From: a virus
Strand: one strand, 5' to 3'
DNA length: 31,281 nt
IMG/VR virus record: IMGVR_UViG_3300009431_000085
Coordinates: 1-31,281 of that record
A program made the position numbers and the translations under genes. This document shows positions 1,197 to 26,619 of this stretch, piece after piece. Under the pieces are notes generated by a model. The model worked only from the letters and a program-made list of their open reading frames with translations. It was not told the origin of the DNA and searched no databases. Position 1 is the first letter of the stretch. Every line of letters starts with the position of its first letter.

Positions 1197-3164
1197 ATGA
1201 CGCGGACGGCAGTGGAACCCCGACGTGGCGAGCCCCGAGGGGGCGAGCTGCCGGCGGAGGTACGGGGGCGGTGGGCCCCGCCACCGTCGGTGGATCGGAC
1301 GAAGTGGGCGGCGGAGCACGTGCGGATTCCGGACAAGGTGGCGACGCTGGGGACGACGTGGGACCCGGACCTGTTTCCGTACGAGCGGGGCGTGCTGGAC
1401 GCGCTGGACAGCCCGGAGGTCCGGACGGTGGTGTTGATGTGGGCGACGCGGACGGGCAAGACGCAGGTGTGGCTGGTGTTTGTCGTCTCGAACGCGGTGC
1501 TGGACCCCGGCCCGACGATGATCGTGTCGGCGACGCAGGACTCGGCGCAGCGGCTGAGCCGGCTGCGGCTGTATCCGATGCTGGCGGCGTGCTCGGAGAC
1601 GGCGGGCCAGTTGCTTCCGAAGCACGAGCAGCAGTCGCTGCTGGTCGACCTGCGGGACATGCTGGCGCTGCTGGCGTGGTCGGGCAGTCCGACGATGGTG
1701 GGCGAGCAGGCGATCCGGTACCTGATGATTCCGGAGGCGGACCTTCACAGCACGGACGCGAGTGCGGAGGGGGACTCGGTCCAGCTCGCGCTCGAGCGGG
1801 TGAAGGGTTTCCCGAACAACAAGGTTTTGATCGAGTGCAGCCCGTCGGAGGAGGGGGCGAGCCGGATCGCGACGTGGTACGAAGCGGGTGACCGTCGGCG
1901 GTATTGGGTGCCCTGCCCTTTCTGCGGTCAGTTCCAGCCGTTGGACTTCGAGCAGGTGCGTTGGCCGGAGGCGAAGGGCGCGGACGGGCACACGCGGAGT
2001 GCGGAGGCGGCTCACGATGCGGCGTTCTACGCGTGCGTGCACTGCTACAACGAGGAGAAGCGGGAGCCGCGGATTCGCGACCGGCACAAGCCGGAGATGC
2101 TGCGTCGCGGGCTGTGGGTCCGCGAGGGGGAGGTGGTCGAGCTGCGGGAGGGCCAGCCGGTCGTGGTGGGCGAGGCGGCGAATCCGAGCCGGCACATTTG
2201 GAGCAGTCGGCTGAGCAGCTTGTACTCGCCGAACGTGACGTTTGGGGAGATGGCGGAGGCGTTTCTGCGGTGCGGGAAGCATCCGGAGCGGCTGAAGACG
2301 TTCTGGAACAAGTGGCTGGCGAAGCCGTGGCAGCCGATCACGGGGAAGCCGGACTGGGAGCAGGTGCGGGATCGGCTTCGGACGGCGCGGCGGCGTCGGG
2401 TGGTGCCGGAGGGGGCGTTCTTCTTGACGGGCGGGGTGGACGTCCAGAAATACGCGTTCTACTACACGATCAACGCCTGGGGGCGGGACGGCAAGGCCTG
2501 GCTGGTCGAGCACGGCGAGGAGGCACGGCTCGATCCGAGCTGGCAGACGATTCGGGATTTCGTGAGCAAGTTTGTTCTCGAGCCGGTGTTTCGGGACGAG
2601 GCGGGGACGGAGTGGCAGGTGAAGGTGGCGGGGGTGGACACGGGCTACGACACGAACCTGGTGTACGCGGCGATCGCGGACCTGGCCCCGGAGCGGGTGA
2701 TGGCGATGAAGGGGGACACGGGCCGCGGGACGCAGGGGAAGTTTTGGCGGTCGCAGGCGATCGAGGTTCAGCCGGAGACGGGGAAACCGTTCGCGGGGTC
2801 GATGCGGCTCTTTCACGCGAACACGCACTTCGGGAAGGAGCAGTTCTACTCGCTCATCGACGAGGGGACGGACCCGAGCGTGCGGTACGAGCTGCACGCG
2901 GAGCCGGACGAGAGTCTGGTGCGGCAGTTGACGGCGGAGAGCTTGGAGCCGCGTCGGCAGAAGCGGACGGGCCGGGAGGTGTTCGAGTGGGTGCTGGTGG
3001 ACCGGCAGGCGGGGAACCACTACCTGGACGCGACGGTGATGCAGTTGGCTGTGGCAGACATCTTGGGGATTCGCGGGATGACGGACCCGGACCGGCCGCG
3101 TCGCGAGGGGCGTCCTCGCGGGCGGGTCGAGATGCGTGGGCCGAAGGGGTACTGGCGCGGGTGA
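1197..3164 (+). CDS. Terminase large subunit, GpA type
   Basis: A 655-residue packaging motor of the lambda gpA family, which hydrolyses ATP to pump DNA into the prohead and cuts the concatemer. Visible features: Walker A-like WATRTGKT at 82-89; a Walker B-like strand ending IPEAD at 178-182, where the usual Asp before the Glu is Pro; a zinc-ribbon-like insertion with C240-x2-C243 and C280-x2-C283, as in other GpA proteins; and the start of the nuclease domain at GVDVQ (D415), followed by VDTGYD. The length fits the family (about 640 residues). The ATG at 1197 follows GAGGGAAGC. GpA-type terminases are typical of cos-packaging phages, which agrees with the Nu1-like partner upstream. Confidence 0.93.
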   Translation: MTRTAVEPRRGEPRGGELPAEVRGRWAPPPSVDRTKWAAEHVRIPDKVATLGTTWDPDLFPYERGVLDALDSPEVRTVVLMWATRTGKTQVWLVFVVSNAVLDPGPTMIVSATQDSAQRLSRLRLYPMLAACSETAGQLLPKHEQQSLLVDLRDMLALLAWSGSPTMVGEQAIRYLMIPEADLHSTDASAEGDSVQLALERVKGFPNNKVLIECSPSEEGASRIATWYEAGDRRRYWVPCPFCGQFQPLDFEQVRWPEAKGADGHTRSAEAAHDAAFYACVHCYNEEKREPRIRDRHKPEMLRRGLWVREGEVVELREGQPVVVGEAANPSRHIWSSRLSSLYSPNVTFGEMAEAFLRCGKHPERLKTFWNKWLAKPWQPITGKPDWEQVRDRLRTARRRRVVPEGAFFLTGGVDVQKYAFYYTINAWGRDGKAWLVEHGEEARLDPSWQTIRDFVSKFVLEPVFRDEAGTEWQVKVAGVDTGYDTNLVYAAIADLAPERVMAMKGDTGRGTQGKFWRSQAIEVQPETGKPFAGSMRLFHANTHFGKEQFYSLIDEGTDPSVRYELHAEPDESLVRQLTAESLEPRRQKRTGREVFEWVLVDRQAGNHYLDATVMQLAVADILGIRGMTDPDRPRREGRPRGRVEMRGPKGYWRG

Positions 3165-3616: not shown

Positions 3617-3847
3617 GTGGCATTCACGACTTGGTCGGCCTATCGGACGGCGCTGCTCGACGCGATGGCGAGCGGCACGTATTTGCACACGAGCTACACG
3701 ACGCCGGCGGGGACGAGCGTCTCGTTCCGCACCCTGAAGGAACTCGAGAAGCACCTGGAGTTCGTGGACCGGATGATCGCGATCGATGAGGGTGAGACGG
3801 GCGGGACGGTCACGTACGCGGACTTCAGGGATTTGGACTCGGCCTGA
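3617..3847 (+). CDS. gpW-like head-tail connector
   Basis: A 76-residue protein from a GTG start at 3617. Its size and pattern resemble lambda gpW: an N-terminal helix (AYRTALLDAMASG), a short beta hairpin with TPAGTSVSFRTL, and a second helix (KELEKHLEFVDRMIA). In lambda, gpW binds the portal after DNA packaging and prepares the neck for tail attachment. The position between the large terminase and the portal is the same as in lambda. The stop overlaps the start of the portal gene by one base, suggesting coupled translation. Sequence identity to gpW is low by eye, so the call rests on size, pattern and order. Confidence 0.65.
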   Translation: MAFTTWSAYRTALLDAMASGTYLHTSYTTPAGTSVSFRTLKELEKHLEFVDRMIAIDEGETGGTVTYADFRDLDSA

Positions 3848-5394
3848 TGGCGAACAAGAAGCGGCAGGGGACGTTGGGCGATCGGCTAGACCGAGCGATC
3901 GCGGTCTTGTTCCCGGCGGCGGCGGTGCGGCGGCAGGTGGCGCGGCTGGCGTACGACGCGGCGTCGCGGAGTTCGATTCGGCGTCGGTACGTCACGAGCA
4001 TCGGTGGCTCGGCGGACGCGCACGCGACGCCGTCGGACCTGTTCCGTCTGATCAATATGAGCCGCAACTTCGAGCGGAACAACCCGGTGGTGGCGGGGCA
4101 GTACGTGACGATGGCGAACAACATCGCGGGGACGACGCTGCGGGTTCAGAGCCGGGCGGGGCAGGGCCCGGGTCAACCGAAGGACGAGTGGAAGGCGTTC
4201 CGTGCGGAGCAGGAGCACGCGTGGACGGAGTGGGCGACGAGTCCGAAGGCGTGCGACGTGCAGGGGCGGCGGAGCTTCCACGCGATGGTACACGCTTCCG
4301 TGCAGACGCTCTGCCGCGACGGCGACATGCTGTTTTTGAAAGTGAACCAGGGGGACGGGGCGCTGCTGGCGTTCGAGGCGGATCAATGTGCGACGCCGCT
4401 GAAGGACCGGTCGGCGGGGAACGTGAGCTACGGCATCCGGGTGGACAGCTCGGGTCGTGCGGCAGCGTACCACCTGAGCGACGCGCACAGTTCGTCGGGC
4501 TACGAGACGCCGGGCGGGAACGGGGCGTGGTATCCGGCCAAATACGTGCTGCACCCGGCGCATCGGCGTCGGTTCAGCCAGACGCGCGGCTCGCCGATTC
4601 TGGTGGCGAGTTTCACGATGATCCAGGACATGCAGGAGGCGCTCGAGGCCTACATCCTGGGGACGAAGCTGGCGGCGAGCGTGGGGCTGGTGTTCCTACA
4701 GCAGGGCGGCCCGGCGTGGGGGAAGGCGCGGTCGACGGTGCAGGAGGATGGGGCGGGGAACGACCGTCGCGAGGAGAAGGTACATCCGGCGATGATTTTC
4801 CACGGCGAGCCGGGCGAGGAAGTCAAGACGATCGACATGAACCGGCCGACGCCGGACTTCGCGGAGTTTTTCAACTCGATGTGGCGTTGGGCGGGCCGTC
4901 CGACGGCGATGGCGGGCGAGCTGATTCTGCTGGACTTCAGCCAGAGCAACTTCAGCAACACGCGGCAGGCGATCATCGAGACGCGGCATGGGTTCACGGT
5001 GATGCGGAACGACGTGGTGATTCCACAGATCGTGCGGCCGACGTACCGATGGAAGATGGGCTGGTGGTGCCGGCCCGGCGGGCCGCTGGGGATGCGGGCC
5101 AAGGGGCTGCCGCCGGACTTTCTGGCGCACGAGGTGTCCTTCTCGGGCTGGGACTGGATCGACAAACTGAAGGACCTGAAGGCGGACGGCGAGGCGGTGG
5201 ACCGGGGTTTCGTCGCGCCGCAGACGGTGTCGGCGCAGCGCGGGTACGACCTCGAGGAGGTGTTGGTATCGAAGGGCGAGGCGATCAAGATCGCCCAGGA
5301 GGTGGCGCAGCGGCTGGGGCTCGAGGACTGGCGGGTGCTGCTGCCGAACGGATTGCTGAGAAAGACGACCGGCCCCGCGCCGGGAGGAGGTTGA
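3847..5394 (+). CDS. Portal protein, lambda gpB family
   Basis: A 515-residue protein that should form the dodecameric ring at the head vertex through which DNA enters and to which the neck binds. Typical features of the lambda-type portal family are the N-terminal NFERNNPVVAGQY motif, the central CRDGDMLFLKVNQ strand, the HPAHRRRFSQTRGSP segment, and the C-terminal FSQSNFSNTRQAIIE motif. The length matches lambda gpB (533). The ATG overlaps the gpW-like stop, and the protease gene begins two bases after the portal stop, behind a strong GGAGGAGG ribosome-binding site. Confidence 0.92.
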   Translation: MANKKRQGTLGDRLDRAIAVLFPAAAVRRQVARLAYDAASRSSIRRRYVTSIGGSADAHATPSDLFRLINMSRNFERNNPVVAGQYVTMANNIAGTTLRVQSRAGQGPGQPKDEWKAFRAEQEHAWTEWATSPKACDVQGRRSFHAMVHASVQTLCRDGDMLFLKVNQGDGALLAFEADQCATPLKDRSAGNVSYGIRVDSSGRAAAYHLSDAHSSSGYETPGGNGAWYPAKYVLHPAHRRRFSQTRGSPILVASFTMIQDMQEALEAYILGTKLAASVGLVFLQQGGPAWGKARSTVQEDGAGNDRREEKVHPAMIFHGEPGEEVKTIDMNRPTPDFAEFFNSMWRWAGRPTAMAGELILLDFSQSNFSNTRQAIIETRHGFTVMRNDVVIPQIVRPTYRWKMGWWCRPGGPLGMRAKGLPPDFLAHEVSFSGWDWIDKLKDLKADGEAVDRGFVAPQTVSAQRGYDLEEVLVSKGEAIKIAQEVAQRLGLEDWRVLLPNGLLRKTTGPAPGGG

Positions 5395-7318: not shown

Positions 7319-8275
7319 ATGGGTGCATTTCCGAGCGCAGCCCTTCCGAAGCCGGAGATCGGCGCGAGTGTGATGGAGTACGCGATCGGTCCCGGTCGCG
7401 AGGGTTTCATCGGGCTGGACGTGCTGCCGCAGTTTCCCGTCGGCACCAAGGAGGGGACGTACGGCGTGCTGCCGCGCGAGGCCTTCACGGTGATTCCCGA
7501 CACGGCGCGGCTGTCGGACGGTTCGTACAACCGCCAGCAGTGGGCGTTCGAGACCGATACCTACGCGTGCGAGGAGCACGGTCTCGAGGAGCTGCTGGGC
7601 GACGACAAGGTCGAGCAGTACGGCGGCCTGTTCAACTACGAGGACGTGGTCAGCAAGAAGATCATGTGGCAGCTTCTGCTGGCGCAGGAGAAGCGGATCG
7701 CCGATCTCTGCCACGACGGCACGATCACGGGTGCCTCGGCGGCCGCGAAGTGGGACGTGCCGGCGAGCGCGACGCCGAAGGCGGACGTGGATGCCGGCCG
7801 GCAGGCCATCCGGGCCGCGACGGGCATGCTGCCCACCAAGATCGCGATGGACTGGGAGACGTTCCACTACCTGGTCAAGACCGACGAGGTGGTGGACGAG
7901 GTGAAGTACACCTCGCCCATCTCCCAGGCCCCGGAGGCCATCCAGAAGCAGATGCTGGCCGTCTACTTCGGGGTGGACGAGATCCTGCTCAGCAACCGGA
8001 TCTACAACTCGGCGGACAAGGGCCAGGCGTTCGCGACGGCGGCAATCTGGGACAAGACGAAGGTCCTGCTGTTCGTGCCGGCGACGGCGATGCTGGGGAT
8101 CGAGCAGCCCGCCCTGGGCGTCTCGATGCTCTGGACGGCGGACAGCCCGGACAACGTCGTGGCTGAGGAGTATCGCGACGAGCCCCGCCGGGGCAACGTG
8201 CTCCGTGTGCGTCAGCATCTCGACGAGGTGCTGGTCGCGAGCTCGCTGGGCTACGTGGTCGACACCGTCCTCTGA
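7319..8275 (+). CDS. Major capsid protein
   Basis: A 318-residue protein, the expected size for an unprocessed HK97-fold major head protein of about 35 kDa. It follows the protease/scaffold and decoration genes, as lambda E does. The N-terminal half carries YAIGPGREGFIGLDVLPQ and an E-loop-like stretch around YNRQQWAFETDTYACEEHG. The C-terminal half has MDWETFHYL and the LRVRQHLDEVLVASSLGY end typical of many such proteins. There is a strong ribosome-binding site, AAGGAGGA, seven bases before the ATG, and its own terminator-bearing leader, both consistent with being the most abundant product. Confidence 0.88.
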   Translation: MGAFPSAALPKPEIGASVMEYAIGPGREGFIGLDVLPQFPVGTKEGTYGVLPREAFTVIPDTARLSDGSYNRQQWAFETDTYACEEHGLEELLGDDKVEQYGGLFNYEDVVSKKIMWQLLLAQEKRIADLCHDGTITGASAAAKWDVPASATPKADVDAGRQAIRAATGMLPTKIAMDWETFHYLVKTDEVVDEVKYTSPISQAPEAIQKQMLAVYFGVDEILLSNRIYNSADKGQAFATAAIWDKTKVLLFVPATAMLGIEQPALGVSMLWTADSPDNVVAEEYRDEPRRGNVLRVRQHLDEVLVASSLGYVVDTVL

Positions 8276-8512: not shown

Positions 8513-8962
8513 ATGAGAAAGTGTGTGTGGTTGCTGCCGGTGCTCTTCGTGCTGGCCGTTGGCTGTGCGATGCCACAGACGATCGAGGCGATCAACGTGA
8601 GCCGGGAGCTTGCGGACTCGACCATCGCCGCCGTTCACGCCGAGGCCGATCTGACCCGTGCGGCCATCGACGGCAAGACGGGCGAGGAGCTGGCGGCTAT
8701 TGCGGCGGTCGCGGCCGAGGCGAAGGCGACGGCGCTCAAGGCGGCGGCGGAGTTGGACGGCAAAGTGGACGCGGCGGTGGAGGCCGAAGCGGCACGGTGG
8801 GACGCGCTGACGGGGAAGGTGTCGGAAACGGTCGATGCCGTCGGCAGTGGCGACTTGGGCGGGGTCGGCAAGAGCTTGCTCGGGGCGTTGACGCTGATCC
8901 TCGCTGGCTCTGAGTGGCGGAAGTACCAGCGGGACAAAAAACGAGAGTCCAATGGTGCCTAA
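8513..8962 (+). CDS. Phage lipoprotein with helical body
   Basis: A 149-residue protein with a clear lipoprotein signal peptide: MRKC, a hydrophobic core, then LAVGC with the lipidated Cys at 18. The rest is Ala-rich and helical, probably coiled coil (about 25-110), followed by a Gly-rich hydrophobic stretch (GGVGKSLLGALTLILAG) and a basic C-terminus. It overlaps the next small membrane-protein gene by 11 bases. A coiled-coil lipoprotein paired with a membrane-anchored coiled-coil protein recalls spanin or holin-accessory pairs acting at lysis. A role in blocking superinfection is also possible. No enzyme motif is visible. Confidence 0.6.
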   Translation: MRKCVWLLPVLFVLAVGCAMPQTIEAINVSRELADSTIAAVHAEADLTRAAIDGKTGEELAAIAAVAAEAKATALKAAAELDGKVDAAVEAEAARWDALTGKVSETVDAVGSGDLGGVGKSLLGALTLILAGSEWRKYQRDKKRESNGA

Positions 8963-9155
8963 CAAGGACGACTGCGTCCTCGGAGCGGAGAACAAGACCC
9001 GGATTGACGGGCTCGAGGGCGACATCGCCGAGATGAAGGTGGCCATCGCCTGCATCCGCGACAAGCTGTTGGGCCGGCTGCCGAACTGGGCGACGCTGAT
9101 GATCACAGCGTTGACGGCCATCGCCGCCGGGCTCGTGGTCGCCCTCGTGAAATGA
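8952..9155 (+). CDS. XhlA-like small membrane protein (holin candidate)
   Basis: A 67-residue protein. An N-terminal coiled coil (KTRIDGLEGDIAEMKVAIACI, about 14-35) is followed by a C-terminal membrane helix (ATLMITALTAIAAGLVVAL) and a final Lys. This is the layout of the XhlA family, which helps holins release endolysin in several phages. It overlaps the preceding lipoprotein gene, which suggests that the two act together. No endolysin is visible in the window, so the lysis enzyme, if any, must lie outside or be of an unrecognised type. Confidence 0.6.
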   Translation: MVPNKDDCVLGAENKTRIDGLEGDIAEMKVAIACIRDKLLGRLPNWATLMITALTAIAAGLVVALVK

Positions 9156-9162
9156 GGCGAAT

Positions 9163-9540
9163 GTGACGCTGAAGGAACGCATCGCGGCGGACGTGTCGGA
9201 GCTCGCCCTGAACACGGGCGAGTTCGCGACGGCGGGCGTGACGTACACGCCGGACGGTGGCGACGCGGTCACGATCAGCGTCGTCTTCGGGGCGGCCGAC
9301 GAGACGCTCGCACGCGAGGAGATGGGCGAGACGCTGCGGAGCGGGATGACGGTCGTCGTCTCGCGGGGCGCGGCCGAGGGCGTGGCGAATCCGGCAACAA
9401 AGGACGAGATGACGATCGGGGGCGATGCGTGGGTGGTCGACTTGATCGAGCGGCAGGACGACTACGTGAGCGTGCTGCACATCACGCGGAAGGAGACGGG
9501 CGACCGCAAGCCGCGGACGTACGACCACGGAGGCGAATGA
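9163..9540 (+). CDS. Head-tail adaptor, lambda FII-like position
   Basis: A 125-residue protein from a GTG at 9163 (behind GAGGCGA), mostly beta: TYTPDGGDAVTISVVFG, GDAWVVDLIERQDDYVSVLHITRKE. Small beta proteins at this point, after the capsid and before the tail genes, are usually head-tail adaptors such as lambda gpFII or neck proteins. The stop TGA overlaps the ATG of the GT-D gene in ATGATG, so the glycosyltransferase is coupled directly to a virion gene. The identification is from position and fold-like pattern, not from a specific motif. Confidence 0.6.
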   Translation: MTLKERIAADVSELALNTGEFATAGVTYTPDGGDAVTISVVFGAADETLAREEMGETLRSGMTVVVSRGAAEGVANPATKDEMTIGGDAWVVDLIERQDDYVSVLHITRKETGDRKPRTYDHGGE

Positions 9541-10250
9541 TGCTCCCGACACCGGTTCGCATCGAAGACTATGTCTGGCTGCTCGAGCGGGGCCTGCCGT
9601 TCACGGTGGCCCGGTATGGCGACGGCGAGTGGTCGTGCATTCTCGGCCGGGTTGGTCGGAACGCCCAGGGCGAGGACTACCTGCCCGAGCTGCGGGAGGC
9701 GTTGATCGAGACGTTGCTCCATCCGCGGCTGACGTTCTACGGGCTCAGCCCTGGCCGGAAGCTCTGCCGTGAAGCAAATGATTGGATGCTTCACGAGCCG
9801 GGCCTGTCGCCCCGTCTCCGCTGGGCGCCGGTGGAGGTTTTGGCGGATGCGAACTTGGCGGGCGTGTTGGGCCCGTTCATTGCCGCGTTGGGCAAGTACC
9901 AGATCGTGCTCGTGGGCCCGTCGCATCTGCGGCCGCTGGACGTGCTAGCTCCGGTGGCGTTCGTCGAGGTACCGCTGCCGAACGCGTTTCTGGCGGTTGA
10001 CGAGACCGTGGCGCGCGTGCGTGAAGCCGTGCGTAAGGCGTTTCGGGGGCCCTGGCCGATTGTGGTGTGCTGGTCGGCGGGCATGGCGACGGCGGTCGGG
10101 ATGCATCGGGTCGCGAATGGCATCGGTGTGACGCAGATCGATTGCGGGGCGATCTGGGACCCGTACGTCGGCGTGCAGTCGCGGAAGAATTATCGGGCGG
10201 ACTGGTTTCAGGAGCGGATGGCGAAGAACCGCGCGGAGGCGGGGCTGTGA
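9537..10250 (+). CDS. GT-D-type glycosyltransferase (DUF1792-like)
   Basis: A 237-residue enzyme. The N-terminal VARYGDGEWSCILG contains the D29-G-E31 motif that marks the GT-D fold family (DUF1792), first described in streptococcal adhesin glycosylation. The later pattern also fits that family: a strand IVLVGPSHLRPLD, VPLPNAF, WPIVVCWSAGMATAVGM, and the end TQIDCGAIWDPYVG. It should transfer a sugar from a nucleotide-sugar donor; the acceptor cannot be read from the sequence. Its ATGs at 9537 and 9540 overlap the stop of the head-tail gene, and its own stop overlaps the GTG of the sulfotransferase, so the cassette is co-translated with structural genes. Confidence 0.8.
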   Translation: MMLPTPVRIEDYVWLLERGLPFTVARYGDGEWSCILGRVGRNAQGEDYLPELREALIETLLHPRLTFYGLSPGRKLCREANDWMLHEPGLSPRLRWAPVEVLADANLAGVLGPFIAALGKYQIVLVGPSHLRPLDVLAPVAFVEVPLPNAFLAVDETVARVREAVRKAFRGPWPIVVCWSAGMATAVGMHRVANGIGVTQIDCGAIWDPYVGVQSRKNYRADWFQERMAKNRAEAGL

Positions 10251-10876
10251 GGTTCGCGATCACGAGCATGGGCCGCTGCGGCACGATGTTTCTGGCGGAC
10301 GTGCTGGCTCGCAGTCGCGAGTTCATCGTCCGGCACGAGCACGCGGACGACCATCTCGGCTGGTTCGCCGTGCCCGGGCAGTACCGCCGCGACGCGCACT
10401 TGGTTCTGACGGCCTTGCGGTTCGCGGCGCACGACAACTACGGCGAGGTCAACTCATTTCTCCGGTTCCTGCTTCCCGATCTGCCGGTAGACCGCCGGGC
10501 GGTGATCGTGCGGCATCTTCCGGACATGTTGCTCTCGATCATCAACCGCGGCCGCCGGCGTTGGGCGGGCGTGCGTGGGATGGCGGAGCTCGTGGACCAC
10601 GTCGATGCGGCGATGCGGGCCGTCGCGACGCACATCGGGCAGGGCATCCCCGTCATTCGCTTCGAGCAGATGACGACGGACCCGGCGGAGCTGGAGCGTA
10701 TTTGCGGACTGATGGGCGTCACGGACGTCGACGTGTCGGAGGTCGACCTGGCGAAGAAGGTGAACGCGACGCAGCACCGGCACATCGAATCGCTCGCCGA
10801 GCTGCCGGACGACGAGCGGGCGGAGCTGCGGCGGCTGGACTGGGTGCTCGCCTGGGAGAGGGGGCTGCCGGAATGA
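10247..10876 (+). CDS. Sulfotransferase family protein
   Basis: A 209-residue protein starting at the GTG that overlaps the preceding stop (GTGA). The N-terminus, a hydrophobic strand then SMGRCGTMFLADVL (7-20), is the 5'-phosphosulfate-binding loop of PAPS-dependent sulfotransferases. The second signature, a strand followed by R89 and a helix up to S97 (VRHLPDMLLSIINR), corresponds to the 3'-phosphate-binding Arg and Ser. It is short for the family but both PAPS contacts are present. It should move sulfate from PAPS to a hydroxyl or amino group, most simply on a sugar added by the neighbouring glycosyltransferases. Its ATGA stop overlap couples it to the next gene. Confidence 0.78.
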   Translation: MRFAITSMGRCGTMFLADVLARSREFIVRHEHADDHLGWFAVPGQYRRDAHLVLTALRFAAHDNYGEVNSFLRFLLPDLPVDRRAVIVRHLPDMLLSIINRGRRRWAGVRGMAELVDHVDAAMRAVATHIGQGIPVIRFEQMTTDPAELERICGLMGVTDVDVSEVDLAKKVNATQHRHIESLAELPDDERAELRRLDWVLAWERGLPE

Positions 10877-12528
10877 TGCCGCCGCGCGGGGCCTGCGTCC
10901 TCTGCTTCGACCGCAAGCGCAATGGCGAGACGTACGGCCGACAGGCGTTCGGTCTGCTCGGCAGTCTCCGGCAGCACGCGCCGGAGCTCCCCATCACGGT
11001 GTTCGCGAACTTCGACCGCTGGGCGGAGAAGTGGCGCGAGGCGTTCGGCGTCAGCGTCGACGTGCTGGACATGCCCGACGAGCAGAACCGGCTGATCAAG
11101 ACGGCGATGCTCGAGCACAGCCCGTACGAGCGGACAATGCAGATCGATTGCGACGCGCTCGTACGGAGCCCCGAGCTGCTCAATGGCTTCCGCTGGCTCG
11201 ACCGCTGGGACGTGTGCCTGGCGACGCATCAGCACGAGCAGATGACGGGCGACCACCGCCGCCGGCCGTACGTGCAGGGGCTCGAGGCCGTCACCGGCTC
11301 GCTGGAGCACAGCTACTTTTGTAGCGGGGTTCTTTTCTTCGGCCGTGGCGTCCGTGTTCGCGACTTCTTCCGGCTCTGGCACGGGCTCTACGTCGGCGGC
11401 GCGTCCGAGCACCGCGACCCCCGGATCGTCGCGCAGGATATGTACCCGATGAACCTCGCGATCTGGCTGACGCAGGGCCTGAGCGTGTTCGACATGGGCT
11501 GGAAGTACTCGTGTGCCGAACCGGACAACGCGGCGGCGATCTGCGTGCACCAGGGCGGCCGGAACGGCAAGCCGCTGCCCGGGGCGATGCGGCACTACTA
11601 CCGCGAGACGTGCGACGAGATGCTCGGCGGGCTGCCGCCGGACGAATCGGCGGACAAGCGGCTGCTCATCGCCGGGCCGTACGTCGGCGAGCTGGGCTGG
11701 GAGATCGGCAACTGGATGCCGCACGTGCGGTGGACGGCCGAAAACGAGGGCTGGGACGCGGTACACGCCATCACGACGCCCGGCCGGGCGGGGCTGTACG
11801 GCTGGGCGGACAGCGTCGCCGAGGTGCCGTTCGGTGGCGAGGCGTGGCGGGCATCGAATCTGTTGCAGGACCCGCCCGACGAGGTGCGGGCCGAGTGGGA
11901 GGGGCTCGTGGCGGCGGCGTCGGAGCAGGTCGTCGCGGCGAGCGAGCTGTGGGGGGAGGTCGGGCATCGGTGTCCGACGCTCAGCTCGCGTACGGTGAAC
12001 TACAAGGACGCGCGGACCGCCGTGCGGCTCGAGCCGGAAGGCCGGCTTTACGAGAAGTGGCGGGGCCGCCTGGCCGGCCCGGCCCCCGTGGTCGTTCTAC
12101 CGGTCCGGATGCTGCGGCGTGGAAGCCGGAAGAACACCGATTGGGCGTTGCACAGCCGCATTGCCGAGGCGCTCCGGGCCATAGGCCTCTTTCCGGTCAC
12201 CGTGGGCCTGGCGGACGCCACAGGTGCGATACCGCACCTCCCGGGAGCGTGCTGGCTGAACGAGACGACGCTGGCGGACCTGGTCGCGATCTACTCGCTC
12301 GCGGCGTGCGTCGTCGGCCCGAGCACGGGCACGATGCACCTGGCGGCGGCGACGGGCACGCCGCACGTCACGTGGGGCGGCGACCGCGAGGTGGTGCGGA
12401 CGCGGTATCTGCGGACCTGGAACCTGAACGGGACGCCCGTACGGCACCTTGGGCTCGGCTGGACGGTCGAGCCGGAGGAGGTGCTGGCGGCGGTGCAGGA
12501 ATTGGTGGGCGAGCGATGCGTGGCGTGA
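10873..12528 (+). CDS. Two-domain glycosyltransferase (GT-A plus GT9-like GT-B)
   Basis: A 551-residue fusion. Residues 1-240 look like a GT-A sugar transferase: N-terminal strand ACVLCFD, helix YGRQAFGLLGSL, strand LPITVF, and a DxD-type metal site IDCDALV (92-94), then a FCSGVLFF segment. Residues about 254-551 look like a GT-B enzyme of the heptosyltransferase (GT9) kind, starting LLIAGPYVGELGWEIGNWMP and carrying the donor-site signature GPSTGTMHLA (482-491), then GTPHVTWGG. The two halves could add successive sugars. It overlaps the sulfotransferase stop (ATGATG) and the next small ORF. Which donors are used cannot be told. Confidence 0.75.
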   Translation: MMPPRGACVLCFDRKRNGETYGRQAFGLLGSLRQHAPELPITVFANFDRWAEKWREAFGVSVDVLDMPDEQNRLIKTAMLEHSPYERTMQIDCDALVRSPELLNGFRWLDRWDVCLATHQHEQMTGDHRRRPYVQGLEAVTGSLEHSYFCSGVLFFGRGVRVRDFFRLWHGLYVGGASEHRDPRIVAQDMYPMNLAIWLTQGLSVFDMGWKYSCAEPDNAAAICVHQGGRNGKPLPGAMRHYYRETCDEMLGGLPPDESADKRLLIAGPYVGELGWEIGNWMPHVRWTAENEGWDAVHAITTPGRAGLYGWADSVAEVPFGGEAWRASNLLQDPPDEVRAEWEGLVAAASEQVVAASELWGEVGHRCPTLSSRTVNYKDARTAVRLEPEGRLYEKWRGRLAGPAPVVVLPVRMLRRGSRKNTDWALHSRIAEALRAIGLFPVTVGLADATGAIPHLPGACWLNETTLADLVAIYSLAACVVGPSTGTMHLAAATGTPHVTWGGDREVVRTRYLRTWNLNGTPVRHLGLGWTVEPEEVLAAVQELVGERCVA

Positions 12529-12704
12529 CGATTGTTCCGATCACCGCGGCGGCGGTGCAGCGGCATTTGCGGCCGGACCCGGCGGAGCATTTCCCGTGCT
12601 CGCTGTTGCTGATCGACAACGAGCTCGCCTGCATCCGCGAGTCGAACGGGCGGATCGTGATCGAGCCGATCTCTGACGCTGGGCGCGACGAGGAGCAGGA
12701 CTGA
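12516..12704 (+). CDS. Small hypothetical protein
   Basis: A 62-residue ORF that overlaps the end of the two-domain glycosyltransferase by 13 bases and the start of the next gene by one base. It begins MRGVTIVPIT and has an acidic end (DAGRDEEQD). A short beta-rich centre (CSLLLIDNELACIRES, GRIVIEPIS) is the only visible pattern. I do not recognise it. The tight overlaps on both sides and its place at the cassette/tail boundary support it being translated. Confidence 0.5.
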   Translation: MRGVTIVPITAAAVQRHLRPDPAEHFPCSLLLIDNELACIRESNGRIVIEPISDAGRDEEQD

Positions 12705-15384: not shown

Positions 15385-15443
15385 TGCCGGACCACCGCCC
15401 GACCTGGGCGGACGTGAAGATGCTCGAGGCCGAGAATGGCTAA
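15327..15443 (+). CDS. GT-like extension made by -1 frameshift
   Basis: This is the reading frame entered after the slip. It adds 38 residues (SRGRGRERLWVHRLWRRG, then the segment ending MLEAENG) to the first 219 residues of the gpG-like protein, giving a fusion of about 257 residues. The added segment is basic then acidic, with a W in PTWADVKML, and ends by overlapping the start of the tape measure gene. In lambda the T part of gpGT binds the tail-tube protein while G binds the tape measure. The extension here is short, but short T parts are known. Confidence 0.65.
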   Translation, partial: SRGRGRERLWVHRLWRRGLMPDHRPTWADVKMLEAENG

Positions 15444-16758
15444 GGTCAAGATGGAGTTCGACGCCCAGACGGGGAAGGCCGTGCAGGGCTTCCTCAAGCT
15501 CGCCGAGGGCCAAAAGAGGGTCGAGGGCGGCTCGGGGCGCATGGCCCGCTCGCACGGGAGAGCTTCGCAGGCGATGATGCGGCAGGTGGGGAGTGTTATT
15601 GCCAGCTACGTCGGCTTGCAGGCAATCCTCGGTACGACCCGGCGGCTGTTCCGAGAGTTGGCGGAGGATCGCCGTCGCGCGGCCGAGGAGACGCGGGGCC
15701 AGATGGCGACGATGGGCCAGCTGGCTCAGTTGGCCGGTCGCGACCCCCAGGAGCTCGCACGCATGCAGGACGCCGTCAAGGCGTCGCGGCTTGAGGTGGG
15801 GCTGACGAACGAACAGGCGACGGCGCTGCAATTCACGCTCGAGTCGACCGGGCTGGCTCGGCATCGGCGGATGTTCGCCGGCATGGGCCTGATCACCGAG
15901 ACGCCGTCGGAGCTGGTCCGGGGCGTGTCGAAGATGCAGGAGGCGTTGGGGGTTTCGGAAACGGGGGGTGCCCGGGCGGTCCTGAACAAGCTGTTGGCGG
16001 CGAGCAAGGCGAGCGAGACGCGGGTCGAGGAGTTCGCCCCGATGGCCTCGATCGCGGCTCAGGAATACAAGCCCTTGGGCGGGTCGGACGAGGAGCTGTT
16101 GGCAACGCTGTCCGTGCTGGCGAAGGCGACGAAATCGCCGGAGGCCGCGGGGAACATGGTGGCGGCGTTGTCGCGCGTGCTGACGAAGAAGGGGCTCAAG
16201 GGCGGACTGCTGGCCGGGGTGGAGCAGATCGAGGAGATGGGGCTGTCGGAGCAGGGGCTGATCAAGTACCTCGGCGAGGCGCGGGCGCTGCGCGGCTACC
16301 GAGCCATCCGCGACCAGATGGGGCAGATCGGTGCGATGGAGGAGACGCTGGCCAGGGAGGACCGCCTGTCGGGGAAGGGGGCGGACTATATCAGTGGGAT
16401 GCTCCAAAACCTAGCGGACGACAAACGCTTCCAGGCGGTCGTGGCGGGGCGGCAGCAGAAGCAGATTCTCGCACTCGAGCGGGAGAAGGACCTCGGCCCT
16501 GGGGCCGTGCTGATGGAGGCGGAGAGGGCGGGCCTGGAGGCGGCGGGCTATCGATTGGACAAGTCGGCGGTGACGCGCAAGGCCGAGGAGTGGATGACGG
16601 CCGCGTGGCAGGGAATTACCGGCATGCCGCTCGATCCGCAGATCGGGGCGAATCAGATGAAACGCGCGGCCGACGCGATCGTGGGAGCCGCGGGTGTGAT
16701 ACGGGATGCCGTGGCCGGCGGCGGGTTGGCCCCCTCCCCCGCCGTGGACGCGGAGTGA
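15436..16758 (+). CDS. Tape measure protein (short)
   Basis: A 440-residue, mostly helical protein, rich in Ala, Glu, Arg and Met, with few prolines. Helical segments run through most of its length, with a hydrophobic section near 50-66 (VGSVIASYVGLQAILG) and Gly-rich breaks. It sits immediately after the frameshift chaperone. Tape measures set tail length at roughly 0.15 nm per residue, so about 65 nm would be expected, short for a siphophage. No peptidase or muralytic domain is apparent. Its ATG overlaps the last codons of the frameshift extension (ATGGCTAA). Confidence 0.8.
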   Translation: MAKVKMEFDAQTGKAVQGFLKLAEGQKRVEGGSGRMARSHGRASQAMMRQVGSVIASYVGLQAILGTTRRLFRELAEDRRRAAEETRGQMATMGQLAQLAGRDPQELARMQDAVKASRLEVGLTNEQATALQFTLESTGLARHRRMFAGMGLITETPSELVRGVSKMQEALGVSETGGARAVLNKLLAASKASETRVEEFAPMASIAAQEYKPLGGSDEELLATLSVLAKATKSPEAAGNMVAALSRVLTKKGLKGGLLAGVEQIEEMGLSEQGLIKYLGEARALRGYRAIRDQMGQIGAMEETLAREDRLSGKGADYISGMLQNLADDKRFQAVVAGRQQKQILALEREKDLGPGAVLMEAERAGLEAAGYRLDKSAVTRKAEEWMTAAWQGITGMPLDPQIGANQMKRAADAIVGAAGVIRDAVAGGGLAPSPAVDAE

Positions 16759-20481: not shown

Positions 20482-23384
20482 TGGCGGTCATCCAGATCAA
20501 GAATCCGGACGACACGGTCGACGTACGGGATGTCGTCCGGCCGGTCGTCTACACGAAGAAGCTCTGGTCCGACGACTGGGAGCGCCGGGACTATCTGCAC
20601 CCTGCCAGTGTCATGGACTGCCTCGAGCCGGCGATGCCGACCGCGCAGTTTCGGTTCCATTATGGGGAGATCAAGCGCGAGGACAAGGGGTGGTGGATGT
20701 TCCCGAAGCGGCAGCAGCTGCTCGGACACTACGTGCAGGTGCGGGCCGCGGCGCACGGCGCGCCCGAGCGGAACGGAGCTCCCGGGCTGATTCGGCTGTG
20801 GACGGGCGTCATCCCGACGCAGACGGACGCGATCCATGAAGGCGGCTCGGGCGAGCAGGGCATCACGGCCTACGGCCTGAGCTACCTGCTCGACCGCGTT
20901 CGCATCAGCACCGGCCACGTCTGGCAGAACGGCGAGGTGCTAACGATCGAGGGGTGCCCGACCTTCAATGAGCGGCATTGGCGCGGCCCGTCGGTACTGG
21001 GGAACCGGTCGACGGACAAACAGGGGATGAGCTACGTCTTCTCGTCCGAGGGCGAGCGGTGGACAGCGACGGAGATCATCGAGTACTTGATGCGTCGGCA
21101 TGCCGCGGACGGGCTGACGTGGAATCTGATCGGCGAGACGGACATGCTCGACGCGAGCAAGGGCGTCTACGGGCTGGACGGGATGACGGTGCGGCAGGCG
21201 CTGAATGTGCTGATCGACCGGCGGCGCGGGCTCTCGTGGTCGGTCGAGATATGGGAGGTGTTGGGGCTCGAGTGGCCGATGGTGCGGGTGCATTCGCGGT
21301 TCGAGCAGGACCTGGCCCAGGGGGAGCTGCAGATCGCGGCGAACAAGGCGAAGGTCAACGTGCACCTGAACGACTCGGAGCATCCGGAGCGGACGATCGA
21401 CATCAACGGTGCGGAGCTCATCAAGGACGCGGGCGAGCAGTACGACCACATTGTCGTCCGGGGGGACCCGGTCAAGAGCTGCTTCACGGTCACACACGGC
21501 CACGGGACACTCGAAGCCGGCTGGGACACGGCGGACGACGGGCTCGAGGACGCCTATCGGGTGGCGAAGGGCTCGGACGCGTCGCCGGAGGACAACGACC
21601 GCTATCGGCAGACGGACAAGTTCGCCCGGGTGTTTCAGAGCTATCGGCTGCCGCCGGACTTCAACTGGCTTGTCGGGCTTGGGGCGAAGTATCCGAATGT
21701 TGAGCCGACCTACGCGGCCTCACCGCAGGTGATCCCGGGGACGGTGCTGACGGACCAGGTACACGAGTCGTGGAACGCCTACGGCCGGCTCTGCCCGCGG
21801 CTGCCGCTTTACGAGGGCTGGAACTACGCGGAGAACCCGCCGGCGAGCGAGAACCCGGAGGGCTCCGAGCCGGAGTTCATGCGTCCGTTCGCGATCCTCT
21901 ATGATGAGGACGCCGAGAAGTCCGTCCTGGCGCACAACCTCCAGAGCAGCACGCAGGACGGGTCGTGCCACGTCCGGATGAGCAGCCGCGAGCTCGGCGT
22001 GGTCGTCTCCGCGCGGCCGCTGGCGCACCTGCTGGCGAAGGACCACTGGGAGGCGGGCTATCCCGACCCGCCGCCGCACGCGGGCAGCCCGAGCAACGTG
22101 CGCCCGAAGTTCGACTGGCAGTACATGTACGTCACGGTCTGCGCGGAGCTCGACCAGCGGCCGTATCAGGAGCAGGCGGTGCTGGACGGGGACGAGTTCG
22201 AGGCGACGCGCACGCTGACGATCGACGTGCCGGAGGCGGAGCTCTGGCTCATCAACACCGGGACGATCGTCGGCGTGGACGCGGACGGGGAGGCGCTGGC
22301 CTACTGCGGCCACGGCGAGATCGGGGACGGCATCTGCGTGCTGCGGGACGACACGGCGGTGCTGCAATCCGTCCTGCTCGCCGCCCGGGCGTGGTATGGG
22401 ACGCGGCGGCGCGCGGTGCACTACACGCGGCAGCGGATCGCGCTCGAGCACGCGCCGGGCACGATGATCGAGGCGGTGGTGACGGGGCTGCGGCAGGAGC
22501 AGGTGGGGACACTGGTCGAGCGGCGGGCGTGGAACTTCGACCGGATGACGACGGAGATCCGGACGGGGCTGGGGACGCCGGATTTCCGGGCGTTCGCCGG
22601 CCGGACGCAGGTGGGGAATCTGGGGCGGCAGGTGAAGCGGCTGACGCACGACGTGGACAAGCTGCGGAGGGAGCAGGACTCGGACCGGCCGGCGGACCCG
22701 CCGGTTCCGATCAAGCGCTGGGCGAAGTGCGCGCTGCCGGATAACCGTTCGGACGACTGCGCGTGGATCCGCCCCGCGACGGGCGATGGGTTCGTCTATG
22801 CGACGCCGTGCGAGCCCGACGGGTCGGGCGCGGCCGACGGGCTGACCGTCTCGCAGGCGAACGTCGAGGACTTCATCGTCATCACCTTCCCGGGCGCCGG
22901 AAACGGCTGCCCGAAGGAGCCGAACGTCCGGAAGGACCAGGTGGTCCCGTACTGGACGAGCGGCGACAACGTGCAGTCGTTCGGCCGCCGGCACTACTGC
23001 GATAGCGGCCCGTGCCTGGATGAGTCGCTGGGCCAGACCGCCACGTTTTCGGTCAGCTCGATTACGCCCACGGGGACGGCCACGGGCCCGAGACCTGGGT
23101 GGTTCTGGGTGGATGACGACGACACGGTCTACGCTCCGAACACGGACGTGAGCACGCTGGGCGTCGAGGTGACGAACCTGGACGGCCGCCAGACGGTCGC
23201 CGTCCATTCCGACCTGCAGGACGGCACCGGCTGGCCGACGGCAGCGTTTCCGACGGCGAAGTACCCTTATGTTCTCGGGCAGGGCGGCATCGGGTGGATC
23301 TTTGACCCGCAGGGGACCCTCAGCTATCCAACGACACTGAAGATGATGGGGCTGGGGCTGCGCTTGGCGCACCGGCTAAACTAA
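20481..23384 (+). CDS. Tail hub / tip attachment protein (gpJ-like position)
   Basis: At 967 residues this is the largest protein of the window and the last structural one. It starts at the ATG that overlaps the previous stop (TAATG). Regions: an N-terminal beta domain (to about 130, with WTGVIPTQTDAIHEGG) resembling phage hub and baseplate domains; a helix-bearing section around 195-265 (ATEIIEYLMRRHA, RQALNVLIDRR); a middle hub-like part; a helical segment near 710-735 (GRQVKRLTHDVDKLRRE); and a Cys-containing C-terminal tip. Its place and size match lambda J or Tal-type hub proteins that cap the tube and contact the receptor. Confidence 0.68.
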   Translation: MAVIQIKNPDDTVDVRDVVRPVVYTKKLWSDDWERRDYLHPASVMDCLEPAMPTAQFRFHYGEIKREDKGWWMFPKRQQLLGHYVQVRAAAHGAPERNGAPGLIRLWTGVIPTQTDAIHEGGSGEQGITAYGLSYLLDRVRISTGHVWQNGEVLTIEGCPTFNERHWRGPSVLGNRSTDKQGMSYVFSSEGERWTATEIIEYLMRRHAADGLTWNLIGETDMLDASKGVYGLDGMTVRQALNVLIDRRRGLSWSVEIWEVLGLEWPMVRVHSRFEQDLAQGELQIAANKAKVNVHLNDSEHPERTIDINGAELIKDAGEQYDHIVVRGDPVKSCFTVTHGHGTLEAGWDTADDGLEDAYRVAKGSDASPEDNDRYRQTDKFARVFQSYRLPPDFNWLVGLGAKYPNVEPTYAASPQVIPGTVLTDQVHESWNAYGRLCPRLPLYEGWNYAENPPASENPEGSEPEFMRPFAILYDEDAEKSVLAHNLQSSTQDGSCHVRMSSRELGVVVSARPLAHLLAKDHWEAGYPDPPPHAGSPSNVRPKFDWQYMYVTVCAELDQRPYQEQAVLDGDEFEATRTLTIDVPEAELWLINTGTIVGVDADGEALAYCGHGEIGDGICVLRDDTAVLQSVLLAARAWYGTRRRAVHYTRQRIALEHAPGTMIEAVVTGLRQEQVGTLVERRAWNFDRMTTEIRTGLGTPDFRAFAGRTQVGNLGRQVKRLTHDVDKLRREQDSDRPADPPVPIKRWAKCALPDNRSDDCAWIRPATGDGFVYATPCEPDGSGAADGLTVSQANVEDFIVITFPGAGNGCPKEPNVRKDQVVPYWTSGDNVQSFGRRHYCDSGPCLDESLGQTATFSVSSITPTGTATGPRPGWFWVDDDDTVYAPNTDVSTLGVEVTNLDGRQTVAVHSDLQDGTGWPTAAFPTAKYPYVLGQGGIGWIFDPQGTLSYPTTLKMMGLGLRLAHRLN

Positions 23385-24067
23385 TGATTCCACCGATCGC
23401 ACATTTCGTCTGGCTTCAGGAACAACTCCCGGACTGGGCGCGGCGGAACGTCGACCGGTTCGCCGAGCTGAATCCGGGCTTGGAGGTCCGCGTCCACCAC
23501 GGCGACGGCGAGCTCGATCCCGCCTACCGCCACCTCTACGAGCAGGCTCGGGATATGTGCGTCCGGAGCGACCTCGTCCGGTACTGCATCCTGCGGCGCG
23601 AGGGCGGGCTGTACTTCGACACCGATTGGGCGTGGGCCGCTCCGCTTCCGCGTCTGCCCGATGACGGGCGAATCTGGCACGTGGACTATGGGCACGCGCT
23701 CTGCATCGCCGGGCTGGCGTCTGCGCCGAGGGCCGAGGGTTGGGATGTTATCCACGAGAAGGTGCTCGCGCAGTCCCCGTACATGCGGCTGGCCGAGACC
23801 GAGGCCTTCAAGGCGGCCGTGCGCGACCGGCCCGATCTGTTCGCGGGGTTCCCGATCGAGTACTTCACTGCCGGCAACATGCACATCGACTTCCGGATCT
23901 ATTGCACGCTGATGGGGTTGGACGCGCCGGGGGTGCCGTGCGAGATCCCGGACGGGCTCATCGGCATTCACTTCTCAATGATGGGAAGCGACGGGGGGGA
24001 CTTCGCTCAAAGGGTCGAGACCCGGATCCGTGAGTTCGAGGCCTTCGGCGACCTGTACGCTCAGTAG
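23384..24067 (+). CDS. GT32-like glycosyltransferase
   Basis: A 227-residue protein starting MIPPIAHFVWLQE, the usual opening of GT32 capsule and mannosyl-type enzymes (I-P-x-x-I-H-x-x-W). Its signature, RSDLVRYCILRREGGLYFDTD with the catalytic D79-T-D81, is clear, and a C-terminal HFSMMGSD region matches the family's H-x-x-x-x-S/W end. It should transfer a hexose or related sugar from a nucleotide donor. The ATG overlaps the hub stop (TAATG), so it is produced with the virion proteins, at the distal end of the same operon as the 9.5-12.5 kb glycan cassette. Its last seven bases overlap the end of a convergent gene. Confidence 0.85.
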   Translation: MIPPIAHFVWLQEQLPDWARRNVDRFAELNPGLEVRVHHGDGELDPAYRHLYEQARDMCVRSDLVRYCILRREGGLYFDTDWAWAAPLPRLPDDGRIWHVDYGHALCIAGLASAPRAEGWDVIHEKVLAQSPYMRLAETEAFKAAVRDRPDLFAGFPIEYFTAGNMHIDFRIYCTLMGLDAPGVPCEIPDGLIGIHFSMMGSDGGDFAQRVETRIREFEAFGDLYAQ

Positions 24068-24741
24068 CCGCGCCAGATACGTGCTTCCTGGTGAGGCCAC
24101 CAGCGGCTCTGGCCGGTGTTCAGCACGCCGCCCTTGCCCCACATCCGCCCTTCGAGTCGGAGCAGGTTGCAGGAGCAGTCCGTCAGCGTGAGCGAGAGGT
24201 CGCCCGTCGGATGGCCGGCCGCGGCCGTCATCGACGCCGCCTGCACCGTCGCGGTGATGCGGATGGCACTGCCCTCGGTGATCCTCCGGTGATGCGTGCC
24301 CGGCCTCATGCCCGGTTCATCGATGATCTTCCGCTCCTTCAGTTCCCCGGCTGTCCGGGCCGTGCTGCCCGAGAGCTTGACGGTGACGTTGAAGCAGGTA
24401 TAGATCCCGCCGGGCCGAGCGACCTGGACGTCGCCGGCGTCGATGACGATGGTGCGGTTGTCGTCCTTGTCCAGGGGCCCGACGTGCGTGACCTCGCCGA
24501 CGAGGACGATCTGGCGGCCGACGACGTTGTCGGCGAGCCAGCCGTTGGCGGCGGTGACCGCCGCGGCGTTCCACGCGACAGAGCCCTTCTTGGTCGGCGC
24601 GTGCTTCTGGCCGTGCAGGCCCCGCACGAGCTCGACCACGCCGGGGATGGTGGGCGGATCGGCCAGGGCAGGCGTCACCAACCCCAACGGGGCAAGCAGG
24701 ACGACGACTGCCAACGGGGCGAGCCAGCTTCTGCGTCTCAT
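24061..24741 (-). CDS. Exported OB-fold-like protein A
   Basis: A 226-residue protein, started at the ATG at 24741 because it follows AAAGGAGG by seven bases. Residues 1-27 form a classical signal peptide (MRRRSW, hydrophobic core, TPALA then cleavage). The mature part has a short helical region (VELVRGL, AWNAAAVTAANGWLADN) followed by beta strands (GRQIVLVGEVTHVG, IRITATVQAA, LSLTLTDCSCNL) with an OB-like rhythm, resembling tRNA_anti-like periplasmic proteins. It shares this layout with the protein encoded at 24875-25564, and the two are paralogues. It converges with the GT32 gene. Probably a lysogenic-conversion gene, function unknown. Confidence 0.65.
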   Translation of the reverse strand: MRRRSWLAPLAVVVLLAPLGLVTPALADPPTIPGVVELVRGLHGQKHAPTKKGSVAWNAAAVTAANGWLADNVVGRQIVLVGEVTHVGPLDKDDNRTIVIDAGDVQVARPGGIYTCFNVTVKLSGSTARTAGELKERKIIDEPGMRPGTHHRRITEGSAIRITATVQAASMTAAAGHPTGDLSLTLTDCSCNLLRLEGRMWGKGGVLNTGQSRWWPHQEARIWRGY

Positions 24742-24831
24742 CTCACGCCTCCTTTCCTCCCCTTCCCTTCTATCACACGCGCGCGCCGTTGCCAAACAGA
24801 ATCCGGTTGCTATTTCGCTCACGTCAGGAGC

Positions 24832-24851
24832 TCGATGTCCGGGTCGTGGTC
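24832..24851 (-). repeat. Integrase-3'-end repeat, copy C
   Basis: Twenty bases here are identical to 26633-26652 in the integrase gene. Read on the minus strand, they still encode PDHDPDIE followed by LLT and a TGA stop at 24819-24821. The flanking RH...LPPDH is also integrase-like. No complete gene uses this frame; it looks like the remnant 3' end of an integrase gene left between two accessory genes. Confidence 0.7.
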
Positions 24852-24874
24852 CGGCGGAAGGTGACGTTTCCGCT

Positions 24875-25564
24875 CTAACGTCTCCGCCAGATTCTCTTGC
24901 GCCGGGCCTCCATGCCTCCCTGCTCTCCCCTGATCTGAACGATCCTGACGCGGGAGTCCTTCAGCCGGATCGCGAGGTCTGAATACTGGGTATCGAGAGC
25001 GTCGGGATGGATGGCCAGCCGGACCTCTTCGACCGTGCCCCTCACCACGACCATGCTGCCGGCGTGGATGATCTTCGTGAACTTGCCCGGCCGGCATTCC
25101 TGTCGCGTCGTCTTGCGCGGGTTGAGCCGGGCGAGTTTGGCGGCGGTCTTCTTCGGGTCGCCGGCGATCTCGGCCTGGACCGCCTTGCAGTCGAAGAGGC
25201 CGGTCGGATTTACGAGAGAGACCGGCCCCGCGTCGACCAAGAGCACCATCCCGTCGATGCTGAGGACCTCGGCTTCGAGGGTGAGCTGTCGTCCGGGCAG
25301 GTTGTCCTCGAGCCAGGCGTTCGCCTTGGCGACCGCGGCGGTGTTCCACGCGACCCGGCGTCCCTTCAGCGGGACGAAGTCGCGTGCGGCGAGGCCCCGG
25401 ACGAGCGCAGCGAGGGAGGGGATGGCAGGTCGCGCTTTCTCTGCGGCCGCCAGTGCGGGCGGGGCGGCGACGAGCCCGTTCGACAAGCTCAGGGCAAGGA
25501 GGACGACGAGCCCGTTCGGCAAGCTCAGGGCGAGCAGTGCGGCCAGGCATCTTGAGGGTTTCAT
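24875..25564 (-). CDS. Exported OB-fold-like protein B, signal peptide with tandem repeat
   Basis: A 229-residue protein from the ATG at 25564, seven bases behind AAAGGAGG, as in its paralogue at 24061-24741. The shared core is AWNTAAVAKANAWLEDNLPGRQ, followed by strands (LTLEAEVLSIDGMVLLVDAG, then later AGSMVVVRGTVEEVR and LAIRLKDSRVRI). The signal peptide is unusual: residues 10-21 (LLALSLPNGLVV) are repeated as 22-33 (LLALSLSNGLVA) because of a 36-bp DNA duplication. It is predicted to be exported or membrane-retained. Function is unknown; tRNA_anti-like OB fold is an inference from strand pattern. Confidence 0.62.
   Translation of the reverse strand: MKPSRCLAALLALSLPNGLVVLLALSLSNGLVAAPPALAAAEKARPAIPSLAALVRGLAARDFVPLKGRRVAWNTAAVAKANAWLEDNLPGRQLTLEAEVLSIDGMVLLVDAGPVSLVNPTGLFDCKAVQAEIAGDPKKTAAKLARLNPRKTTRQECRPGKFTKIIHAGSMVVVRGTVEEVRLAIHPDALDTQYSDLAIRLKDSRVRIVQIRGEQGGMEARRKRIWRRR
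25469..25531 (-). repeat. Two tandem TTCGRCAAGCTCAGGGC repeats inside a signal peptide
   Basis: A 36-bp unit occurs twice (starting at 25469 and 25505). In each, 27 bases are identical except one position (TTCGACAAGC versus TTCGGCAAGC). The sequence looks like the dispersed TTCGACAAGCTCAGG repeat that I remember from many bacterial genomes. Because the unit is 36 bp, it keeps the frame of the exported-protein gene and adds 12 residues to its signal peptide. Confidence 0.75.
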
Positions 25565-25651
25565 GTCGGGCCTCCTTTCTGCCTCCTTTCTACCACACAT
25601 TTCCGCGACTGGCAACATAGGACTTGATTTCTGTTCTGCACGGGCCTCACG

Positions 25652-25682
25652 CCAGCCGTTCGATGTCGGGGTCGTGGTCGGG
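25652..25682 (-). repeat. Integrase-3'-end repeat, copy B
   Basis: Thirty-one bases matching 26625-26655 with one mismatch. On the minus strand it reads DPDHDPDIERLA followed by TGA, the same ending as the integrase (PDHDPDIERLG, stop). It lies immediately after the stop of the HTH gene at 25687 and before the start of the exported protein gene, so it marks a cassette boundary. Confidence 0.8.
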
Positions 25683-26536: not shown

Positions 26537-26619
26537 GCGGAAAATGGCGATTTTCTGAGGTTTTTCTGTCGCCGTATAAGCGGCGTTGGTCGCTGGCGTT
26601 ACGGTCTGTCGCCCGCGCG

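Follow-up and report, generated by a model that had tools for sequence, protein, structure and literature searches.

Phage-encoded sugar transfer is carried out by the gtrABC-type O-antigen conversion cassettes of temperate phages, which are characterized by a membrane flippase together with a membrane glycosyltransferase. Virion glycosylation is another form, and is known from mycobacteriophages such as Che8 (Freeman et al., 2023, via PMC11256854 and PMC12619734), in which glycans are attached to capsid and tail tube subunits (PMC12619734; PMC11256854). Phages have also been reported to carry sulfotransferase genes, classed as auxiliary (PMC10580990, e.g., in OM43 phages; PMC8290583), and the function of these genes in phage genomes has been called unclear (PMC10580990). 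Among the GT-D glycosyltransferases, an enzyme is known that adds glucose to the glycosylated protein Fap1, thus extending a protein-bound glycan (PMC5063993).

The window analyzed here is the whole of an IMG/VR virus record (31,281 bases), which possibly still covers only part of the phage genome. The plus strand of its left two thirds carries a virion block, in which a cassette of three ORFs (9537-12528) lies between the head-tail attachment gene and the tail genes (Table 1). As in the mycobacteriophages, the glycosyltransferases are phage-encoded, but the mycobacteriophage glycans were found on capsid and tail tube subunits, whereas the glycan of the present system is a predicted one; neither a sulfotransferase nor a GT-D enzyme is described for those systems in the accessible parts of PMC11256854 and PMC12619734, and phage Maravista has its glycosyltransferase genes close to the 3' genome end and not between head and tail genes. 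The gtrABC cassettes likewise encode sugar transfer, but the present cassette includes neither the membrane flippase nor the membrane glycosyltransferase, belongs to a virion operon and contains a sulfotransferase gene. Like the OM43-type sulfotransferases (PMC10580990), the window's enzyme is phage-borne and would have a sulfotransferase fold of the PF13469 clan, whereas its gene is embedded in an overlapping chain of glycosyltransferase genes inside the virion operon.

Phage sulfotransferases and virion glycosylation are therefore each already known singly, and the idea in the sequence-only reading of this DNA that a phage-encoded sulfation pathway would be new has to be narrowed: sulfotransferases as such had been reported (PMC10580990; PMC8290583), and it is the set of sulfotransferase, GT-D and other glycosyltransferase genes embedded in virion operons which appears undescribed. 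No report of virion modification by sulfated glycans in phages was found in a literature search that left most subscription journals and preprints outside its scope.

Table 1. Features of the window, with positions counted from its first base
Feature	Position	Strand	Basis or remark
GpA-type terminase	1197-3164	+	virion block
Lambda-family portal	3847-5394	+	virion block
Head maturation protease and decoration-like protein genes		+	listed between portal and major head protein
Major head protein	7319-8275	+	virion block
Head-tail attachment protein	9163-9540	+	PF05354 (Phage_attach), E 5e-8; directly upstream of the cassette, overlapping
Predicted GT-D glycosyltransferase, RYGDGEW family (237 aa)	9537-10250	+	viral homologues, profile to PDB, AF2/Foldseek
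Predicted small PAPS sulfotransferase (209 aa)	10247-10876	+	family profile, invariant PAPS-site residues
Predicted two-domain glycosyltransferase (550-551 aa)	10873/10876-12528	+	N-terminal probable GT-A (DxD), C-terminal GT9
59-aa ORF, function unassigned	12525-12704	+	GTGA and TGATG overlaps; joins the cassette to the next virion-block gene
Tape-measure-like protein	15436-16758	+	among tail genes downstream of the cassette
GT32-like (Gly_transf_sug) gene	23384-24067	+	PF04488, E 7e-8; end of tail block
Integrase	right arm		PHROG integrase, E 1e-32

The overlaps by which the sequence-only reading had linked the cassette genes to each other and to the head-tail gene upstream were found at each junction. 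The TGA of the head-tail attachment gene lies inside the ATGATG at 9537, around the start of the first cassette gene; the first and second genes meet in the GTGA at 10247, and the second and third in the ATGATG at 10873, which spans the TGA at 10874. The third gene and the 59-aa ORF, which gave no match in an NCBIfam search, share the GTGA at 12525, and the TGA of this ORF overlaps the ATG at 12704 of the following virion-block gene (TGATG). The overall GC content of the cassette (0.69) resembles that of the head and tail blocks (0.68 each). These five consecutive overlaps and the neighbor-like base composition indicate that the cassette genes are real and probably coupled. None of the four enzymes showed a convincing membrane segment; the 19-residue hydropathy peaks at 1.76, in the confidently folded, soluble GT-D model.

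Predicted enzymes of the cassette

When the first protein was used alone, direct profile searches including Pfam and NCBIfam gave no family match. IMG/VR was scanned for its relatives with a degenerate DNA motif encoding RYGDGEW. About 20 of the 35 stretches returned encode full-length or partial homologues (phmmer E-values down to 1.5e-30), in the alignment of which RYGDGEW, D202, G204, and D208 are invariant and the C-terminal D-x-G...D motif is kept. The best PDB matches of the family profile are the GT-D enzymes 4phr, 4pfx, and 5v4a (E 1e-4 to 3e-4), both the N-terminal DGE-type motif and the C-terminal motif align to GalT1 in the profile alignment, and several family members match PF08759 or PF22882. 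With the AF2 model (pLDDT 91.6), Foldseek again gave 4pfx, 5v4a, and 4phr, and no other structure below E 0.001. Judging by its fold and motifs, this product is a GT-D glycosyltransferase, as had been proposed from the DGE motif. It resembles the DUF1792/PF08759 enzyme GalT1/dGT1 of Streptococcus parasanguinis in fold (TM 0.60 by model comparison) and in the N-terminal R-[FY]-GDGE and C-terminal motifs common to both, but it belongs to a separate RYGDGEW subfamily from viral contigs, the window's protein alone misses the Pfam model, and its partners include a sulfotransferase and virion genes. A single scan of the GTDB genomes with a longer motif (RYGDGEW followed by two residues and I[LF]) gave no match, which fits a largely viral subfamily, although one scan does not prove absence from these genomes.

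The GT-D genes show some variations in structure. In two loci (L031:2165-3442 and L036:4557-5813), the GT-D domain follows an N-terminal domain that looks, by eye, like a SAM-dependent methyltransferase; L031 also carries a second, unfused GT-D gene. At L025:1903-2637, a frameshift or a sequencing error divides the GT-D gene into two ORFs.

The second protein alone likewise gave no family match in direct profile searches including Pfam and NCBIfam. Exact-peptide scans of the viral and genome collections with single cassette proteins yielded no relatives, and a scan with the MGRCGT motif returned only two contigs, carrying a different MGRCGT-type protein. Homologues were reached via the GE[LF]GWE motif of the third protein, in loci where a relative of the second protein is encoded beside or near a GT9-like gene: L153/L158 (E 1e-16), L124/L160, L125/L159, and, as a fragment, L074. 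Since the paired records are near-identical, three distinct phage lineages besides the window associate this sulfotransferase family with a GT9-like gene. All members of the family keep R10, G12, E31, R89, and S97. R10 and G12 belong to the 5' PAPS loop GRCGT (R10-C-G12-T13), in which the Walker A lysine is absent, and R89 and S97 form the 3' site; their spacing of eight residues is that of the classical 3'-phosphate site. The family profile matches the solved sulfotransferase 5x2b (PDB) over most of its length (E 6e-4) and the LPS sulfotransferase NodH (9vki) at E 0.04, and one family member matches PF13469 (E 2e-5). The hhalign comparison with Pfam-recognized phage PF00685 sulfotransferases gave a probability of 88 (E 3e-6), as against 0.3 for a GT-D negative control; with a second set of sulfotransferases, the probability was only 10. 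The structure model is of moderate quality (pLDDT 76), and its Foldseek list mixes P-loop kinases and sulfotransferases, the best of the latter (3rnl) ranking ninth. The kinase reading raised by this list was rejected because the sequence profile points to sulfotransferases and the loop has no Walker A lysine. The residues of both PAPS sites and the family profile thus identify the product as a small PAPS sulfotransferase, in line with the earlier proposal.

The homologue in L153/L158 lies on a 275-kb jumbo-phage contig, amid a long run of glycosyltransferase-like, methyltransferase-like, and several sulfotransferase-like genes.

The third protein had been read as a two-domain glycosyltransferase, and this assignment holds firmly for one of its halves. 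The C-terminal half matches PF01075 above the cut-off (E 7e-6), its viral homologues give a profile match to 1psw (E 7e-7), and this GT9-like family has more than 100 matching stretches in IMG/VR; its assignment to GT9 is solid. The N-terminal half is probably a GT-A enzyme: profile searches did not place it in a solved family, and its one homologue (L021:10083-10709), in which the DxD is kept, matches PF03407 weakly, just below the cut-off. The fourth enzyme is the GT32-like gene product, which was rightly said to close the tail operon and which may act with the cassette or independently of it.

Recurrence in other uncultivated viral loci

Looking for the same gene order in related phages had been suggested along with the sequence-only reading, and sets of GT-D and sulfotransferase genes were indeed found to recur. 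The loci were collected via the GT-D motif and not via sulfotransferases, and 15 distinct GT-D loci were left after near-identical pairs and two marginal partial homologues had been dropped. A Pfam-recognized sulfotransferase is encoded in seven of them (L023, L025, which has two, L026, L030, L031, L033, where the best match falls just under the Pfam cut-off, and L036). In 14 control loci with a chance motif and no GT-D homologue, local HMM profiles detected no sulfotransferase at E<0.01; the Pfam tally of these controls, which lists 25 of 55 families, would not alone exclude a weak one. The difference (7/15 versus 0/14, one-sided Fisher test by locus count, approximately 0.004) is indicative only, since the profiles used for detection derive from the positives themselves and the controls amount to 112 kb versus roughly 210 kb.

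The content and order of the cassette genes vary between loci. In L023, head completion and neck/tail completion genes are followed by the sulfotransferase, the GT-D, two GT4-type enzymes, a probable tail gene, and the tape measure gene, while L025 carries a sulfotransferase, an FkbM-like methyltransferase, the GT-D, a second sulfotransferase, two GT2-like genes, and a Pfam tail tube gene (methyltransferase and GT2-like assignments by eye). In both cases, as in the window, the set is located among virion genes directly before the tail genes. In L021, the glycosyltransferase genes, including the GT-D, come after the major head protein gene; those of L017 are flanked by a terminase-like gene and the portal gene. 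The gene set is invisible among the deposited phages searched, since tblastn gave no match in 50,697 phage records with any of six queries, namely the three cassette proteins (P0001, P0002, and P0003), a phage sulfotransferase, and two further GT-D proteins; the GT-D motif RYGDGEW provides a searchable marker for such phages.

The occurrence of similar sets in other uncultured phages suggests that such viruses may give their particles, or their host, a coat of sulfated sugars. We tentatively propose, at somewhat less than even confidence, that several lineages of uncultivated tailed phages decorate their own virions with sulfated glycans by means of a largely virus-specific GT-D family, along with sulfotransferases and other glycosyltransferases, whose genes are inserted into the virion operon, in many cases where the head and tail genes meet. 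This would give the sulfotransferases found there a concrete and testable role, the sulfation of a particle glycan.

Candidate acceptors of the glycan

As regards the window itself, we give even chances to the following reading: the cassette is expressed late by a temperate tailed phage, and its cytoplasmic enzymes assemble a sulfated glycan, for which virion proteins are the most likely carriers. Late expression, at a time when virion proteins are abundant new acceptors, is suggested by the location among the virion genes and by the overlaps that chain the cassette to the gene for head-tail attachment. The soluble-looking enzymes are those expected for cytoplasmic protein glycosylation, unlike gtrABC-type surface conversion, and the production of a sulfated glycan would follow from the enzyme set; together with the precedents of Fap1 and the mycobacteriophage glycans, late expression and solubility favor a virion protein as acceptor. 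The GT-D, GT9-like, and probable GT-A domains, and perhaps the GT32-like enzyme, would add sugars sequentially to a co-produced acceptor, for which a virion protein, such as a subunit of the head-tail joint or the tail tube, is the most likely candidate, and the sulfotransferase would transfer sulfate from host PAPS to that glycan. The resulting particle would bear a negatively charged glycan, with possible effects on phage adsorption, environmental stability, or recognition, and sulfation would thereby join the known virion modifications. Several observations count against this reading: the structure model of the sulfotransferase is moderate, with kinases mixed into its Foldseek list, some of the relatives are found in large glycan arrays of jumbo phages, away from the head-tail boundary, and the partner genes differ from locus to locus, so that the product need not be identical.

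The same enzymes might alter the host surface late in infection by glycosylating and sulfating a surface polysaccharide precursor in the cytoplasm, which would block superinfection or keep progeny from adhering to debris. Those GT9 enzymes whose function is known are LPS heptosyltransferases, an LPS sulfotransferase (NodH) is among the profile matches, and the integrase suggests that the phage is probably temperate. We nevertheless hold a host-surface target to be rather unlikely, given that no flippase, polymerase, or membrane glycosyltransferase gene lies beside the cassette, that the cassette proteins show no convincing membrane segment, and that a virion-block location is expected to be silent in the lysogen and late in lysis.

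The genes could also be independent passengers of a variable region of the virion block, each with a target of its own and no joint sulfated product. The differences in content and order noted above are those of a gene-capture site, but all three genes overlap and retain catalytic-type residues, and the pairs GT-D plus sulfotransferase and sulfotransferase plus GT9-like each recur, which makes unrelated passengers improbable. The glycosylation, and possibly sulfation, of hypermodified DNA bases as a defense against restriction is the least probable alternative and a very unlikely one: sulfated DNA is not known to us, the genes lie among virion genes rather than replication genes, and no base hydroxymethylase or other hypermodification gene was recognized in a non-exhaustive survey by eye of the window's ORFs, although DNA hypermodification by phage glycosyltransferases is known (Pyle et al., 2024, as cited in PMC12619734).

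Other features of the window

Between the major head and head-tail attachment genes (8513-9155), there are genes for a lipobox (VGCA) protein and for a small protein with one strong membrane segment; these products are possibly lysis or envelope proteins. In the right arm, a 45-nt stretch corresponding to the last 14 or so codons of the integrase gene (PDHDPDIE-L) recurs twice downstream of this gene (24810-24854, 25638-25682, and 26611-26655; spacings 973 and 828 nt). The intervals are associated with an XRE-like gene (25687-26097) and two paralogous secreted-protein-like genes (24061-24822 and 24875-25618, minus strand). This arrangement resembles the successive capture of small cassettes at an att site located in the final part of the integrase gene.
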